From Glycocaulis sp. (lineage in GTDB: Bacteria > Pseudomonadota > Alphaproteobacteria > Caulobacterales > Maricaulaceae), in assembly GCA_022565665.1 (NCBI GenBank), contig JAIUMI010000007.1, forward strand, positions 1-64,000: a stretch of DNA of 64,000 nt, in the 5' to 3' direction. Below the pieces are notes generated by a model. That model did not search any database, was not told where the DNA came from, and saw only the letters and a list, made by a program, of their open reading frames with translations. How positions within the stretch are numbered: the first letter of the stretch is position 1; each line of letters begins with the position of its first letter. The position numbers and the translations under genes were made by a program. This document shows positions 11,872 to 47,714 of this stretch, piece by piece.

Positions 11872-12038
11872 GGGCGGACCTTGTGGCGGGGCGGCACCGG
11901 CAATGTGCTTGTCCATTTCAAGCCGAATTTGCCTTCGAGCGCAAAGCTGCTGCGGACGTCCCAAGCACAGGGGCCTGCGCGCTTGCCATTTCGGCAGGGT
12001 TTGACATTATGCCCGCGCCCTGACGGGGGTCTGCCGTG

Positions 12039-15000
12039 ATGCTGAATGAAAAAGGACGCGACGTGGACGACGCGAGCAAGCAGGACGTGCGATCGGGACC
12101 TGCCTTCACACCCGATTCTGGCGACGCAGCGGACGCCGCTGCCGAGGCAGAACGCGCCGTGGAGCGTGCCCGCCTGAGGGCGCTGGAAACCGAGATTTCC
12201 ACCCTGCGCGACACGATCAATACCGAGCGTTCCGTCCGTGAGCAGGCCGAGGCGGAGCTCAAAGCCCGTCTCAATCAGGTCCGCTCCCTGCTGACCAGCA
12301 CCTCCTGGCGCGTGACCGCGCCATTGCGCCACGCTGTGTCCATCGCCCGTACCGGCAAGATGGCGCCCACCACTGCCAGTCTTGTGGCTGAGCTCAATAC
12401 GCTTTTGACCGCGCCGGAGGCAGACGCCGCGCTGGCCGGACTGGCGAGCGAGGATCTGCGCAAGCAGGCCCATGCGCGTGTGCGCCACGTCAAGGCACGT
12501 CTGCTTGAACACGGGTTCCGCGAGCGGGCTCTGACCGATTTCGAGGCACTGGCCAATACACCGGACGACCCCTATCTGCGCGCCCTTGCTTCATGGGAAC
12601 TGGCGGTCTGGCACGCCAACCAGGCCGAACCCGGCCATGCCGCGCACTGCCTGCGTTTCCTGGCCGCTGCTGCATCCATGGAGTTGCCTGAGGTCACCGC
12701 GCAGCGCATCGCCATCCTGAAGGCCGAGAGCCTGGCTCTTACCGGCGCCGCCGATGAGGCGCGCGCCGTACTGGAGGGCATGACGGCGCAGCTTGGTGAT
12801 GCGGATCTCTATCTGTGTCTGTCGCGTCTTGAGGACAGTCTTGAGGCCAAGACCGCTCTCATCAACAAGGCACTGGGGCTGCGCGGTGTCGCGCCGGTGG
12901 CGTTCACGGCCGACGGCGCAACGCCCTATGACCGGCTGTCTGCCGAGGTGGAGCCGGAGGAGGAGTGCCCACTGACCGTCACGGTCATCGTGCCGGCCTA
13001 TAATGCGCAAGCCATGCTGGAGACCACGCTGCGTTCGCTCGCTGCGCAGAGCTGGACCAATCTGGAAATCCTGGTGGCCGACGATTGCAGCACCGATGGC
13101 ACGGCCGCGCTGGTGGAGGCCTTTTCCCGGCGCGATCCGCGGGTGCGCCTGGTGCCTGCCAAGGCCAATTCCGGGCCTTATGTAGCGCGCAATCTCGCGC
13201 TGATGGAAGCGCGCGGCTATTTCGTCACCTGCAACGATTCCGATGACTGGTCGCATCCCGAAAAGATTGCCCGGCAGGTGCGCCACCTGCTCGCCAATCC
13301 GTCTGTCGTTGCCAATACGTCCCAGCAGGCGCGTGCTCATGAGGACATGCGCTTTTCCCGGCGCGGCAATCCGGGTTTCTACATCCAGCCGAACATGTCC
13401 TCGCTGATGTTCCGCCGCGAAATGGTCGTCGAGCGGATCGGGTATTGGGACTCGGTGCGCTTTGGCGCGGATTCGGAATATACCCGCCGGATCAAGCGCG
13501 CTTTCGGCGATGCGGCTCTGGTTGATGTGGAAACAGGCCCGCTCTCCTTCCAGCGCCAGACGCCCACCTCGCTGACCGGTTCACGCGAGTTCGGCTATCA
13601 CGGCTTCAAGATGGGCGCGCGGCTGGAATACGAGAATAATCACCGCCGCTTCCACAAGAAGAACCGCACCCCCTATATCGGTTTCCCGCTGACCGAGCGC
13701 CCCTTCACTGCGCCCGAACCCATGTGGCCGCAGCGAGAGGCCGCGCAGGACGGCGTGCGCCATTTCGACGTGATCATCGCGTCCGATTTCCGCCTGCCCG
13801 GCGGCACCAACATGTCCAATCTGGAAGAGATCAAGGCCCAGCGCCGCTTTGGCCTGAAGACCGGCCTTGTCCAGATGTCTCGCTATGATGTGAGCCCGGA
13901 CCGGAAGATGAATGACCAGATTGCCGCCCAGATTGACGGCGATCAGGTCCAGCTCGTGGTCTATGGGGAGAAGGTGACGTGCGACCTGCTCGTGGTGCGT
14001 CTGCCCTGGGTGCTTCAGGAATGGCAGGAATGCCTGCCGCAGGTCGATGCGGGCGCCGTCAAGGTGATCGTCAACCAGCCCCCGAAGCGCGATTACGGAC
14101 CCGATAGCGAGTACATCTATCACCTCCAGCGCTGTCTCAATCACCTCAAGCGCCATTTCGGCAGCTCCGGCACCTGGCACCCGATCGGGCCGCTGGTACG
14201 CGAAGCCCTGCTTACCCACCACAAGGAGGAGATGGCGGGTATCCAGCTTGGCGAGAACTGGCCGAACATTATTGATGTCAGCGAGTGGCGCCGCCCCTTC
14301 CGCCCTGCACGCGGCGAACGCATCCGCATCTGCCGCCACTCCCGCGACCAGTACGTGAAATGGCCCTCTTCGGCCGAAGAGCTTCTGATAATCTATCCCG
14401 ACGATCCACGCTACGAGGTCCACATACTGGGCGGCGCGGACACGCCCAAGGCCCTGCTTGGCGGCAAGCTGCCGAAGTATTGGCGCGTGACGGGCTTCGG
14501 CAAGATGAGCCCGAGGCGGTTCCTGTCGAAGTTCGACGTCTTCGTCTATTACACCCACCCGGACTGGGTGGAGTCCTTCGGCCGGGTCATCTTCGAGGCC
14601 ATGGCGGTCGGGCTGCCTGTCATCCTGCCGCGCGTCTACGAACCTCTCTTCAAGGATGCGGCGATCTATGCCGAGCCGGACGAGGTGCTTGCGCGCGTGG
14701 ACGAGCTGATGGCCGACGATGATCTCTATGATGCGCAGGTGGCAAGGGCCCTTGCCTATGTGGAGACCCATTTCGGACATGGCGTGCATGCGGCCCGGCT
14801 GGCCCCGGATCTGGACCGCAGGATCGGGGCGGGTCTTTCCGTGCCGGGCCTCGGGCAGAGCGAGGCCTCCATCCGTTTCGACACCAAGGCCTATGCGAGC
14901 TTCGAGGCAGCCCCGCTTGAGGGCTTCTGCGAGGCGCTCGCGTCCTCCAGCCGGTCAGCCCCGGCCCGCCTGGCCCGCACGCTGCTGGGCGAGGCGGACG

Positions 15001-16049
15001 AGGCGATGGCGCGCGGACCCTATTCCGTCGTGGACAAGACCACATTGCCGCCCAGCGGTGACCGGCATGATTACTGGCACCCGGCGCCCTACTGGCATCC
15101 CAATCCGGAAACGTTCAACGGCCTGCCCTATATCCGCAAGGACGGGGTGCGGGTTCCCGGTACGCTGATGTACGAGCCGGAAAGCGACAAGTATGACCGC
15201 ACCCGGCTGCAGATGCTGTTCGATGACAGCACTCTGCTGGCGCTGGCCACCCGGCTGACCGGGCAGCAGGCCTATGCCGAACGCGCTGCCGCGCATCTGC
15301 GCCACTGGTTCCTCGACCCCGCCACGCGCATGAACCCGCATCTGAAGTTTGCGCAGGTCAAGCCGGGCCATAATGGCAATAAGGGTTCCAGCAGCGGTGT
15401 GATCGAGATGAAGGATTTCTACTATTATCTCGATGCGGTCCGCCTGATGATCGAAGCGGGAGCACTTTCAGAGCGCGATCAGGCGGGTTTGCGCGCGTGG
15501 CTGCGCGATTATGCCATGTGGCTTGCCACCTCAGAGCAGGGCGTGGCGGAGCGCAGCTCGGTCAATAATCACGGGCTCTATTATGATATCCAGGCCTGTG
15601 CCATCGGCCTGTTCCTCAATGAGAAAGCGCTGGTATTCCGCGCGCTCAATGATGCAGTTGCACGGATTGGCCATCATTTCGCGCCTGACGGATCCCAGCC
15701 CGAAGAGCTGACGCGTACGACCACGGCGCATTATTGCTGCTTCAACTTTCAGGGCTGGGCGAACATGGCACGTCTCGCCGCGCAGGCCGGTGTCGATCTG
15801 TGGCGCTACGAAACGCCGGACGGGCGGAGCCTGCTCAAGGGCGCGCAATGGCTGGCGGACCATGCAGGCAAGCCCTGGCCCTATCAGCAGATCGATGCGT
15901 TTGATGCCGAGCGCTTCATTCCCGCCTGGCATGGCGTGCCCGAAGCGTTGCGCCCGGAACGGCCGCACGCCATTCCCGCCAGCCCGTTTGGTGTGAAGCC
16001 GCGCTTTCATCCGCATGATGGTGTACGGCCCTACTGGAATCTGGGATGA
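12039..16049 (+). CDS. GT2 / GT4-like / alginate lyase-like fusion protein
   Basis: A 1336-residue protein. In order: an acidic coiled coil (about 30-85) ending in SWRVTAPLR, a signature found before glycosyltransferase domains; a helical repeat region (110-300); a GT2 domain (308-520) with VTVIVPAYNAQ, DDCSTDG near 342 and the metal site NDSDDW near 398; a GT4-like domain (576-900) with SFGRVIFEAMAVGLPVIL near 845; and a C-terminal alginate lyase/heparinase-type alpha toroid (about 990-1336) with PPSGDRHDYWHPAPYW, NGLPYIRKDG and NNHG at 1176-1179. I see no signal peptide, so the lyase domain appears cytoplasmic. The ATG at 12039 was chosen; GTG 12036 and GTG 12063 are alternatives. A polymer-making and polymer-cutting activity in one chain is unusual. 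Confidence 0.85.
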   Translation: MLNEKGRDVDDASKQDVRSGPAFTPDSGDAADAAAEAERAVERARLRALETEISTLRDTINTERSVREQAEAELKARLNQVRSLLTSTSWRVTAPLRHAVSIARTGKMAPTTASLVAELNTLLTAPEADAALAGLASEDLRKQAHARVRHVKARLLEHGFRERALTDFEALANTPDDPYLRALASWELAVWHANQAEPGHAAHCLRFLAAAASMELPEVTAQRIAILKAESLALTGAADEARAVLEGMTAQLGDADLYLCLSRLEDSLEAKTALINKALGLRGVAPVAFTADGATPYDRLSAEVEPEEECPLTVTVIVPAYNAQAMLETTLRSLAAQSWTNLEILVADDCSTDGTAALVEAFSRRDPRVRLVPAKANSGPYVARNLALMEARGYFVTCNDSDDWSHPEKIARQVRHLLANPSVVANTSQQARAHEDMRFSRRGNPGFYIQPNMSSLMFRREMVVERIGYWDSVRFGADSEYTRRIKRAFGDAALVDVETGPLSFQRQTPTSLTGSREFGYHGFKMGARLEYENNHRRFHKKNRTPYIGFPLTERPFTAPEPMWPQREAAQDGVRHFDVIIASDFRLPGGTNMSNLEEIKAQRRFGLKTGLVQMSRYDVSPDRKMNDQIAAQIDGDQVQLVVYGEKVTCDLLVVRLPWVLQEWQECLPQVDAGAVKVIVNQPPKRDYGPDSEYIYHLQRCLNHLKRHFGSSGTWHPIGPLVREALLTHHKEEMAGIQLGENWPNIIDVSEWRRPFRPARGERIRICRHSRDQYVKWPSSAEELLIIYPDDPRYEVHILGGADTPKALLGGKLPKYWRVTGFGKMSPRRFLSKFDVFVYYTHPDWVESFGRVIFEAMAVGLPVILPRVYEPLFKDAAIYAEPDEVLARVDELMADDDLYDAQVARALAYVETHFGHGVHAARLAPDLDRRIGAGLSVPGLGQSEASIRFDTKAYASFEAAPLEGFCEALASSSRSAPARLARTLLGEADEAMARGPYSVVDKTTLPPSGDRHDYWHPAPYWHPNPETFNGLPYIRKDGVRVPGTLMYEPESDKYDRTRLQMLFDDSTLLALATRLTGQQAYAERAAAHLRHWFLDPATRMNPHLKFAQVKPGHNGNKGSSSGVIEMKDFYYYLDAVRLMIEAGALSERDQAGLRAWLRDYAMWLATSEQGVAERSSVNNHGLYYDIQACAIGLFLNEKALVFRALNDAVARIGHHFAPDGSQPEELTRTTTAHYCCFNFQGWANMARLAAQAGVDLWRYETPDGRSLLKGAQWLADHAGKPWPYQQIDAFDAERFIPAWHGVPEALRPERPHAIPASPFGVKPRFHPHDGVRPYWNLG

Positions 16050-44323: not shown

Positions 44324-44393
44324 ACAGCAAGGGAGTTCCCTCCCCATCATTCCCCTGCTGCCTGCCGTCAGGCCTGACCACGCGTGAAGGAAG

Positions 44394-44522: not shown

Positions 44523-44599
<77 letters not shown>

Positions 44600-44787
44600 G
44601 TCGGCCACCCTCTTACAGGCCAAAGATGAAAGGTTCAATGGTGCCGGGCTGCGGGCCGGAAAGCCTCTGGCAATTGCTCCGGAGGGACGCTTTGGAGCCG
44701 TCCCTTGCGGCAATCACACCCCCAGGGCCGGCATAATCGCGCAAGCCGCTTCCGCGAGGGGCAAGGTCCGCCTATATCGTGTTCATC

Positions 44788-46788
44788 ATGGAAACAGCGG
44801 AGCTGATCTTGCTGGCTGCGGCCGGCCTTGTGCTGCTGGCGATTGCGGGGGCCGCCGCAACGCGCCAGGCCGGTGCGCCCCTGCTCCTGATCTTCCTCGT
44901 GATCGGCATGCTGGCCGGGGAGGAGGGGCCGGGCGGCATTTCCTTCCACGCCCATGACACGGCCTATCTCTTTGGTTCGCTGGCGCTTGCGCTGATCCTG
45001 TTCGATGGCGGGCTGGGCACCAAGCTGCGCCGTCTGCGCGCCGTGCTGCGCCCGTCCCTCAGCCTTGCGACCGTCGGTGTGCTCATCACGGCGGGGATAA
45101 CGGCCATTGCCGCGAAATACCTGTTCGGCCTCAGCTGGATAGAAGCGGCCCTGATGGGCGCGATCGTATCCTCCACCGATGCTGCCGCCGTGCTCATGCT
45201 GATCGCGGGCAAGGATCTCAAAGCCCGCCCGCGCGTGGCCACCACGCTGGAGGCCGAGTCCGGTTTCAATGATCCGATGGCGGTGATCCTCGTGGTCACC
45301 TTCGTCGAATGGCTGTCGGGCAGAGGCGCGCCCGACCCCGTGATGGCCGGGCTGATGATCATCTGGGCGATTGCCGCAGGCGGCCTGATCGGCTGGTTTG
45401 GCGGCCGCGCGATTGCCTTTGTGGAGCGCCAGATCGGCCTGCCCATCGGGCTCTATCCGATCTTCGCGGCCGCCGCCGCGGTGTTCCTGTTTGCCTTTGC
45501 GCAGGTGATCGAGGCGTCTGGCTTCCTGGCTGCCTATCTGGCGGGGGTGGCGATGGCGTCCGCGCCCAAGCGCCGGGCTGCCGAGGCCACGGCGCGCTTT
45601 TCAGACGGCCTCGCCTGGATCGCGCAGATCGGCCTTTTCCTCATGCTGGGCCTTCTGGTGACGCCCAGCCATGCCGCCGAAGTCGCGCTCCCGGCCCTCG
45701 GGCTCGCTTTCGTCCTGATCCTGATTGCGCGCCCTGTGGCGGTACTGATCTGTCTGGCGCCGGAGCGCTACCGGCTCAATGAGCGCGCCTTTATCGGCTG
45801 GATGGGGCTGAGGGGTGCGGTGCCGATCTTTCTGGGCGCCTATCCGGTGCTGGCCGGGGTGGAGAATGCGAATCTCTATTTCTCGGCGGCCTTCGCGGTG
45901 GTGATCGCTTCGCTGGTCATACAGGGCTGGACGGCAGGGCCGGTGGCGCGCCTGTTTGACGTGGCCCCGCCTCTGCCGCGCGGGGGCAATCTGGCCAATG
46001 CCGGCGCCGTGGCGGCCGTGGCGGTCGGTTTTACGCTGGCCAGTGCCGCCGTCTCGTTTGGCACCGCAGAGCGCAATCGCGAACCCGCCCCTATCACCCC
46101 GCTCAATGTCCGCGAGCTGATTACGGCGCTTGGTCAGGACGAGGCAGGCCGGGCAGTACGCATTGAGAGCTTTCCATCCGACTGGGCAGAGCTGGACCCG
46201 GCGGAGCGGCGTGACGTGTTTGCCCGGGTCGCCGCCGGCCTGGTGGCCGCGCAGAACGAACGCATCCTTGCCGAGCGCGAGAGCCTGCTGGTCATGCGCG
46301 CGCAGATCGAGGCGGGCATTCCCCTGACCCTGCCCCAGCAGGCACGGCGCGACAGCCTCGCGCGGCGCTATGGCGGGCGGTATGAGGATCTCGATGATCT
46401 GCTGGCGCGGGTGGACATCGTCCCGCCTTCGCTGGGCGCAGCGCAGGCCGCCCTTGCTACCGGCTGGGGCTCGAGCGAGGCGGCCCTTGCCCGCAACACC
46501 CTCTTTGGCCGCACGCCGCGCGGGGCGTCCGGCTTTGACAGCCTCGGGGCCGCGGCGGGCGAATATGTGGACGTGCTCAACAGTCACCGGGACTTTGCCA
46601 GCTTCCGCGCTGAACGCGCGCGGCTGCGGGCCGAAGGGCAGGCGATCACGGGCCTCGCCCTGGTGGGCGAGATCGGGCCTTACGCATCAAGCGGAGAGGC
46701 CTACGCAGCCCAGGTCCGCTCCGTCCTCACCAGCGCGGACCTCGCCCGCTTCGATCCCAATACAGCTGCCGGCACGCAATCTATGTGA
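44788..46788 (+). CDS. CPA1 cation/proton antiporter fused to Bax-like glucosaminidase domain
   Basis: 666 residues from ATG 44788 (GTG 44779 is an alternative). Residues 1-390 form a CPA1 antiporter: LILFDGGLGTKL, VSSTDAAAV and the ion-binding ESGFNDPMAV, then GLRGAVPIFLGAYP. An extra membrane helix (about 398-420) should put the rest in the periplasm. Residues 440-660 match the Bax/GH73 fold: LLARVDIVPPSLGAAQAAL, GWGSSEAALARNTLFG, LNSHRDFASFR and GEAYAAQVRSVL. At the catalytic Glu position of that family (QAANESAWG type) this protein has Ala557 (QAALATGWG), so the domain may bind rather than cut peptidoglycan. Related antiporters usually carry TrkA-C or cytosolic tails instead. Its stop overlaps the convergent gene by 8 bases. 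Confidence 0.8.
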   Translation: METAELILLAAAGLVLLAIAGAAATRQAGAPLLLIFLVIGMLAGEEGPGGISFHAHDTAYLFGSLALALILFDGGLGTKLRRLRAVLRPSLSLATVGVLITAGITAIAAKYLFGLSWIEAALMGAIVSSTDAAAVLMLIAGKDLKARPRVATTLEAESGFNDPMAVILVVTFVEWLSGRGAPDPVMAGLMIIWAIAAGGLIGWFGGRAIAFVERQIGLPIGLYPIFAAAAAVFLFAFAQVIEASGFLAAYLAGVAMASAPKRRAAEATARFSDGLAWIAQIGLFLMLGLLVTPSHAAEVALPALGLAFVLILIARPVAVLICLAPERYRLNERAFIGWMGLRGAVPIFLGAYPVLAGVENANLYFSAAFAVVIASLVIQGWTAGPVARLFDVAPPLPRGGNLANAGAVAAVAVGFTLASAAVSFGTAERNREPAPITPLNVRELITALGQDEAGRAVRIESFPSDWAELDPAERRDVFARVAAGLVAAQNERILAERESLLVMRAQIEAGIPLTLPQQARRDSLARRYGGRYEDLDDLLARVDIVPPSLGAAQAALATGWGSSEAALARNTLFGRTPRGASGFDSLGAAAGEYVDVLNSHRDFASFRAERARLRAEGQAITGLALVGEIGPYASSGEAYAAQVRSVLTSADLARFDPNTAAGTQSM

Positions 46789-47398
46789 TCGACAGCGCCA
46801 GGAGGAAGCCGAACAGGCCGCCTGCTGCCATCAGGCCCCAGAACCACCAGCGCATGCGCGGCTTGGACATCTGGCCGGCATCCGCACCATCCTCGGCGAG
46901 GTCAGGTTCCAGATCCGGCATCGTCCACGCCAGATAGGCGGTCGGCAAGGTGAAGCTGTAGAGCAGCACACCCCAGAAAATGGTGTTCCAGTGCTCATAG
47001 CTCTGCGGCGCCCACAAGGTGAGGCGCGTCTGGTCATTGGCGACTGCCAGATAGAAGATCCCGGCGGCCGCCAGACCTGTGAGCACCTGGTAGGCAAAGG
47101 TAAACGCCTTCTGGCGCAGATCGCGTTCGAGATCATCAAGCTCGCAGACCTGCTCGCCCACAATGCGCTGCATGTAGGAGGGCGCGATGTAAAAGAAGGT
47201 CAGCACCGACAGGGCCATCACGGCGAGCCCGGCAATGCCCGTAATGAAGGCGGGCGCGCCATCCCCGGCCAATCCTGCGTTAAGGGCGATCAGTCCGCCG
47301 ATGGGGTAACCGGCCAGGATCACGCTGGTGGCGATGCGCATGGAGGCGCGGTTGCGATTGGGCACACGCCCGCTGGAAGTGCGCAGGTAAAAGGACAT
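46781..47398 (-). CDS. Membrane protein paired with XRE regulator
   Basis: 205 residues with five or six hydrophobic helices (about 22-42, 50-72, 105-123, 137-160, 183-203) and a charged stretch RIVGEQVCELDDLERDLRQK between helices two and three. It begins one base after the stop of the XRE regulator gene, so expression is coupled. Small XRE regulators with membrane partners are common two-gene units; the function of this one is unknown. MRIATSV, 19 codons in, is an alternative start. Confidence 0.65.
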   Translation of the reverse strand: MSFYLRTSSGRVPNRNRASMRIATSVILAGYPIGGLIALNAGLAGDGAPAFITGIAGLAVMALSVLTFFYIAPSYMQRIVGEQVCELDDLERDLRQKAFTFAYQVLTGLAAAGIFYLAVANDQTRLTLWAPQSYEHWNTIFWGVLLYSFTLPTAYLAWTMPDLEPDLAEDGADAGQMSKPRMRWWFWGLMAAGGLFGFLLALSIT

Positions 47399-47399
47399 C

Positions 47400-47645
47400 T
47401 TACTGATCCCGCTGGGTGGCGATCCGCGATAGCGGCTCGAAAGGTTTCAGGGAGAAGATCATCTCGACGGGCAGCTCGAAATATTCTGACAGCTTCAGCG
47501 CCAGCTCGAGCGAGGGCGAGTAATCGCCGCGTTCGAGATAGCCGATGGTCTGGAAGTTCACGCCCACCGCATCGGCCAGCGCCTTGCGTGACAGGCCGCG
47601 TTCGGCGCGCAGGACGGGCAGGCGGTTGTGAATGGGTGAACTCAT
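47400..47645 (-). CDS. XRE-family helix-turn-helix regulator
   Basis: 81 residues from ATG 47645 (MSSPIHNRLPVLR); the frame opens at 47678. A single Cro/CI-type HTH covers about 8-60: LPVLRAERGLSRKALADAVG, VNFQTIGYLERGDYSPSLELALKLSEYFELP, then the typical tail VEMIFSL. It resembles the small YozG-like regulators. It probably controls its own promoter and the membrane gene behind it through the palindromes at 47715-47745. Confidence 0.85.
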   Translation of the reverse strand: MSSPIHNRLPVLRAERGLSRKALADAVGVNFQTIGYLERGDYSPSLELALKLSEYFELPVEMIFSLKPFEPLSRIATQRDQ

Positions 47646-47714
47646 GGTTCTGCTGTCCGGGCGTCTGGCGCCGTCCAAACGCGGCGCACAATGGGTATGC
47701 CGCGTTTAGAAGCA

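Follow-up and report, generated by a model that had tools for sequence, protein, structure and literature searches.

A CPA1 K+/H+ antiporter fused to a Bax-type cell-wall hydrolase domain lacking the catalytic Glu in Glycocaulis and related genera

Results

Gene and domain organization of the locus

The window analyzed here, namely the whole stretch of 64,000 nucleotides from contig JAIUMI010000007.1 of a Glycocaulis sp. assembly, carries an open reading frame in which a CPA1 antiporter is followed by an additional membrane helix, a variable linker, and a Bax-type domain without the catalytic Glu (Table 1). An earlier note, made from the letters of the window, had proposed such an antiporter-Bax protein, and it is confirmed here as a real fusion, both parts being matched by profiles and BLASTP and the same combination recurring in 30 genomes.

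Table 1. Features of the fusion gene and of its surroundings, numbered along the window.
Feature	Positions	Strand	Basis or remark
1337-aa ORF	12036-16049	+	GT2 glycosyltransferase, GT1-like region and alginate-lyase domain
tRNA-Arg (CCG), just upstream of the antiporter gene	44523-44599	-	
Fusion ORF, 666 aa, single continuous open frame	44788-46788	+	ATG start; GTG at 44779
CPA1 K+/H+ antiporter core, YcgO/CvrA (NhaP2) type, residues 1-395, 13 membrane helices	44788-45972	+	Profile matches, AlphaFold2, Foldseek, BLASTP
Additional (14th) membrane helix, residues 401-429, predicted periplasm-directed	45988-46074	+	AlphaFold2 helix, hydropathy, K+R counts
Variable linker, residues 430-470, short helix at 441-448	46075-46197	+	AlphaFold2, dN/dS
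Bax-type GH73 (lysozyme-like) domain, residues 471-655; stretch short at the GH73 beta-lobe position	46198-46752	+	Profiles, BLASTP, fold (Foldseek weak)
Ala557 codon, GH73 catalytic Glu position	46456-46458	+	Alignments, E. coli Bax BLASTP, census
C-terminal tail (661-666 low confidence) plus stop codon	46753-46788	+	Frame, model
205-aa ORF without Pfam match	46781-47398	-	Hydrophobic by eye; overlaps the antiporter gene end by 8 bases
Small HTH_3 regulator, adjoining the 205-aa ORF	47400-47678	-	

The core was matched by Na_H_Exchanger (PF00999) in a profile search (E 9.7e-54) and scored above the cut-offs of the NCBIfam potassium/proton antiporter model NF003715 (478 bits; cut-off 309) and of NF003716 (404 bits; cut-off 355), and under that of NF003714 (371 bits; cut-off 471); E. 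coli CvrA/YcgO shared 48% identity with it over 353 aa. At the C-terminus, residues 472-643 matched the Bax model NF007681 (E 8.8e-21) at 74 bits, far under its equivalog cut-off of 193, and E. coli K-12 Bax aligned at 32% over 184 aa (BLASTP, E 2e-29); all 39 domains of alignment A4 matched NF007681 as well. The Glucosaminidase profile PF01832 scored 26.4 bits over residues 541-648 in the protein scan (E 1.2e-5), under its cut-off of 30.2, and 30.3 bits in the genome scan, barely above it, this cut-off being passed in 21/30 fused genomes. The same genome holds two further PF00999 exchangers.

Between positions 44350 and 47000 the promoter scan found none (0.2 expected), and four terminator-like sites were detected, all within the antiporter gene. 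Stretches like the tRNA-Arg lie upstream of the antiporter gene in several relatives. Elsewhere in the window, the 1337-aa ORF perhaps makes and cuts one polysaccharide in a single chain.

Distribution and origin of the fusion

A frameshift or an assembly join in the source had been raised in the earlier note as a threat to its claim. In the search of other genomes the same fusion was found in 30 genomes, distributed in nine genera and three families, and the identical frame was open in all of them, including single-contig assemblies and named strains. Consequently, an artefact of frameshift, assembly or annotation, in favor of which no point was found, has a negligible probability.

In the family of the window itself, the C-terminal region was matched in 21 of 137 genomes, 20 of which, in six genera, carry the fusion. 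Locus L023 (genome G025; E 8e-4) was removed from the fused count as a chance match, its frame resembling that of a secreted zinc protease. Every match was fused in two related families (9/62 and 1/105 genomes), as were all 28 matches, in 28 genomes, of an order-wide sample of 398 genomes, where at most seven first-look candidates were scored per genome and a further domain could have gone unnoticed. The stricter test for additional domains was a PF01832 scan of the 30 fused genomes, in 29 of which the fused protein was the only match at E <= 0.01, the thirtieth (G024) having one further weak match (E 0.0025).

Moreover, among the best 80 of 352 loci from a scan of named genomes, 13 were fused and 67 free-standing. 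One of the two patterns used held the Ala motif, so that the scan favors fused copies; the finding of Glu in all free-standing domains, described below, runs against that bias. Named carriers include Glycocaulis albus, G. profundi, Alkalicaulis satelles, Oceanicaulis MAGs, Marinicauda pacifica, Euryhalocaulis caribicus, and Parvularcula oceani. Carriers share one order in the genome collection used, and NCBI places Glycocaulis in Maricaulales and Parvularcula in Parvularculales.

A wider search covered 385 class-level and 299 phylum-level genomes, from which 55 loci (L135-L189) and ten others picked for long frames (L190-L199, 526-750 aa) were read; none of the 66 domain frames in these 65 loci had an antiporter core, and all of them had the Glu. 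Among the matches listed, the only frames longer than 600 aa were that of the window and one of 750 aa without antiporter (G478). In a plasmid search 95 records matched, none of them covering over 80% of the protein. Three free-standing alphaproteobacterial Bax proteins with intact Glu (L190, L191, and L192) present N-terminal extensions of about 350-500 residues, which are proline-rich and have, by eye, an N-terminal hydrophobic stretch. Tandem Bax-type frames, with Glu in both, were seen in Oceanibacterium hippocampi (L104:4440-6630).

In a midpoint-rooted tree of 30 fused and 38 non-fused cores, one of which (NF_L240) was a partial row, all fused cores fell to one side of a branch supported at 100/100. 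For two loci (L016 and L021) the reading began at a later in-frame start, and alignments A1 and A3 lack their first residues. The 30 fused copies thus stand for a single evolutionary event, the fusion having probably arisen once.

Topology, ion site and the missing control region

The full-length AlphaFold2 model, built from alignment A3 (mean pLDDT 87.9; pTM 0.83), comprises 13 core helices, a helix at residues 401-429, and a helical domain from residue 471. The earlier note had counted 12 helices in the core, a figure corrected by this model and by that of YcgO, which has 13 helices plus RCK and CorC domains (PMC11808508), so that the extra helix is the fourteenth. The helix 401-429 block reached a pLDDT of just 67-70, of moderate confidence, and the domain blocks reached 88-97 up to residue 650. 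PaNhaP and MjNhaP1 were among the top Foldseek matches of the whole model. Folded alone, the Bax-type domain had a pLDDT of 96.1, and its first three PDB matches were the GH73 enzymes Auto, AtlA, and LytB, all weak, with rmsd above 12 (E 0.012, 0.047, and 0.30; probability 1.00, 1.00, and 0.80; TM by query 0.43, 0.45, and 0.32, respectively).

Over the 30 fused proteins, helix 14 showed a mean hydropathy of +1.45, and K+R averaged 2.97 before it (net charge +1.43) versus 1.33 after it (net -1.03), a bias that fits the positive-inside rule and is weaker in the f5 and f2 sequences. E. coli YcgO was assigned an N-out/C-in orientation with a cytoplasmic C-terminal region by cysteine accessibility (PMC11808508). 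A 13-helix core of this orientation, continued by one more helix, would leave the Bax-type domain in the periplasm. Regarding the periplasmic placement that had been put forward in the earlier note, the extra helix is seen in the model, and the location itself, consistent with helix count and charge bias, is a prediction. In the core, residues T130, D131, E155, E157, N161, D162, and R342 of the ion site, with its ND motif and acidic residues, were invariant in 30/30 fused proteins, and on this conservation the transporter is expected to work.

No match to RCK (TrkA_C) or CorC_HlyC was found in the fusion protein by profile scan. Thirty non-fused relatives have about 195-244 residues beyond the core, and among eight non-fused relatives scanned TrkA_C was found in three and CorC_HlyC in three, with at least one of them in four (one below both cut-offs) and neither in the other four, one of which is core-only. 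The cytoplasmic RCK and CorC region of YcgO is the interaction site for unphosphorylated PtsN (PMC11808508), and the fusion protein, with no match to either domain, thus lacks this point of PtsN action. We infer that this tail was replaced by the helix and the Bax-type domain, rather than lost earlier. Core-only CPA1 antiporters were also observed in eight genomes of the same family (L220-L227; frames of 395-439 aa, with 6-21 residues past the matched core), and together these make up a separate, long-branched clade.

Loss of the catalytic glutamate

The earlier note had read Ala557 at the position of the catalytic Glu, and the alignments bear this out. In BLASTP, Ala557 faces the Glu of the AAAESGWG motif of E. 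coli K-12 Bax, and in the match to Listeria Auto (3fi7), a weak one at E 0.28, the opposite residue is likewise a Glu. For the census of this site, 217 domain frames were reduced to 158 distinct stretches (128 free-standing and 30 fused) with no row dropped and the E. coli yardsticks omitted: Glu was present in 128/128 free-standing Bax-like domains, whereas the general-acid Glu of the E-S/T-G-W-G motif was absent in 30/30 fused ones, which have Ala (28), Thr (1), or Ser (1). Relatives carrying an intact Glu in free-standing genes, regarded in the earlier note as counting against its reading, do exist, and all those examined are free-standing, with every fused relative examined being Glu-less. 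A fused relative with intact Glu was sought and found neither among the fused proteins nor in the 65 class- and phylum-level loci.

In AtlA-gl and in other listed GH73 enzymes, replacement of this Glu by Ala is reported as inactivating (PMC7170848), and hydrolysis has thus very likely been lost in the fused domain. That the domain is still an enzyme, because another acid took over or because it acquired a different activity, is very unlikely. Acids are indeed enriched in the fused set at residues 592 (25/30 fused versus 1/15 free-standing), 522 (27/30 versus 6/15), and 637 (22/30 versus 5/15), and yet none of these candidate replacements is invariant there, nor is any other acid that is common in fused and rare in free-standing domains. 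In FlgJ, E184 is the Glu on the central helix and the second Glu, E223, lies on a beta-hairpin, a conserved second acid in GH73 being described as elusive (PMC4752226). The stretch corresponding to E223, which we placed as the beta-lobe between G574 and F583, is short in 27/30 fused domains (5-10 residues, with 14-19 in the other three) and spans 13-28 residues in 15/15 free-standing domains, a point that may also count against a surviving enzyme.

Conservation and selection in the fused domain

Of the 63 positions that show conservation of 80% or more across 15 free-standing domains, the fused set keeps 34, partly keeps 12, and has lost 17, the latter including, besides 557, W520, N596, S633, and E634; the cleft may therefore not bind the usual glycan any more. 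On the other hand, P546, Q553, the G559-W560-G561 triplet, N570, G574, and R607 were invariant in 30/30 fused proteins, and residue 632 was Tyr in 27/30 and Phe in 3/30, a pattern from which we infer that a ligand cleft has been retained. Loss of the Glu together with a preserved fold and cleft motif leads us to expect binding without cutting.

In 13 chosen pairs (Nei-Gojobori), dN/dS of the Bax-type domain was 0.06-0.21 in 12 and 0.54 in the remaining pair (L017/L018), with an overall median of approximately 0.12, values that are rough given the high dS (0.4-1.4) in the core and in this domain. The domain is under purifying selection and is being maintained rather than decaying. A functionless leftover of the fusion event, in line with dN/dS values about 1.7 to 9 times those of the core (median approximately 0.04) and with the single pair at 0.54, is accordingly highly improbable, considering that the domain is of full length in all 30 genomes of three families and that its dN/dS is low in nearly all pairs.

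A passive role is unlikely, although not to the same degree: the domain may merely tether the antiporter to the sacculus, place it in the cell, or stabilize its dimer, with transport being constitutive. This would agree with a fast-changing linker (dN/dS up to 0.48), with an antiporter that is otherwise intact, and with the eight core-only family members, as they indicate that the core can exist without a tail. However, the invariance of GWG, N570, and G574 represents more constraint than an anchor obviously needs.

Genomic neighborhood

The downstream neighbor of the antiporter gene lies on the opposite strand. Among 13 relatives compared, a downstream ABC ATPase was common to seven, and most other neighbors were common to fewer. 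The 205-aa ORF and the HTH_3 regulator were both seen at L027 and L028, and the regulator alone at L037.

These comparisons bear on a scaffolding or regulatory role, in which the dead Bax domain would dock an active autolysin or a wall synthase and bring wall remodeling beside K+ efflux. A precedent comes from another alphaproteobacterium, Caulobacter, whose DipM, a LytM protein without catalytic activity, is reported to bind several autolysins and to stimulate two of these (PMC10336132), and the retained fold and purifying selection are also in keeping with such a role. Nevertheless, no wall-enzyme gene was seen adjoining the fusion gene in the 13 loci compared, where most neighbors change, and docking leaves unexplained why the partner is an antiporter. 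On balance, we consider the scaffold doubtful.

Discussion

How bacteria keep turgor, which depends mostly on K+, in step with the wall's state of growth is to our knowledge an open question, and direct molecular links are few. In the protein described here, a K+/H+ antiporter and a Glu-less wall-hydrolase fold are parts of a single chain, the latter at the place where YcgO has its cytoplasmic control region, and a specific hypothesis on turgor and wall becomes testable in a single protein. It is also a clear-cut example from nature of a pseudo-enzyme linked to a domain fusion. Each part belongs to a known family, and the combination and the Glu-less state are apparently undescribed, no description of either having been found in the open-licence literature as judged by titles and the first part of abstracts.

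That the Glu is missing from all fused copies examined points to a domain that senses the wall or grips it without cutting, and wall or turgor sensing by this domain is plausible. We propose that the cytoplasmic RCK/CorC tail gave way, probably once, to a helix and a Bax-type GH73 domain, and that the domain would face the periplasm with its fold kept. The motif of the glycan cleft appears largely preserved (GWG, the Asn-x-x-x-Gly element, and the Tyr of the YA(S/T)D-like region) and the general-acid Glu is gone, so that the domain should bind and not cut. Its ligand might be strands of peptidoglycan, fragments of the wall, or a wall enzyme or other wall protein, and by holding this ligand the domain might adjust K+/H+ exchange or place the antiporter. 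To this reading, a periplasmic binding or regulatory module that modulates or positions K+/H+ exchange, we assign a probability of roughly 0.5.

A more specific form of it, a wall-gated antiporter of single origin, is offered tentatively, as a possibility. In this form, the dead Bax domain would gauge the periplasmic peptidoglycan by its strand density, its stretch, or its turnover fragments, and would set K+/H+ exchange accordingly. If this were true, turgor would be set from outside through the wall, and not from inside through RCK, CorC, and PtsN. The sequences cannot separate a binding module from a scaffold for wall enzymes or from a passive anchor.

Comparison with known systems

The closest parallel of the antiporter part is the YcgO/CvrA (NhaP2) antiporter, known from E. 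coli and, as NhaP2, from V. cholerae, which has the same 13-helix core, with E155, E157, and D162 identically numbered and with D133 of YcgO corresponding to D131 of the fusion protein. The difference lies in what follows the core, YcgO having cytoplasmic RCK and CorC domains (PMC11808508), whereas the fusion protein has a fourteenth helix and a Bax-type domain. Free-standing Bax (PRK10356/NF007681, a putative glycoside hydrolase) is homologous to this domain over 184 aa; it bears the Glu in all distinct free-standing copies counted, in contrast to the fused domains, which are Glu-less and in most cases shorter between G574 and F583. The GH73 glucosaminidases FlgJ, Auto, AtlA, and LytB have the lysozyme-like fold in common with it, with weak Foldseek matches, and differ in their general-acid Glu, replaced by Ala, Thr, or Ser in the fused domains.

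Finally, LytM factors of the DipM type, which include EnvC and NlpD, are not known to be part of an ion transporter. DipM resembles the fusion protein in retaining an inactive wall-hydrolase domain for regulation (PMC10336132), and LytM factors differ from it in that this domain is a LytM endopeptidase domain and not of the GH73 family.
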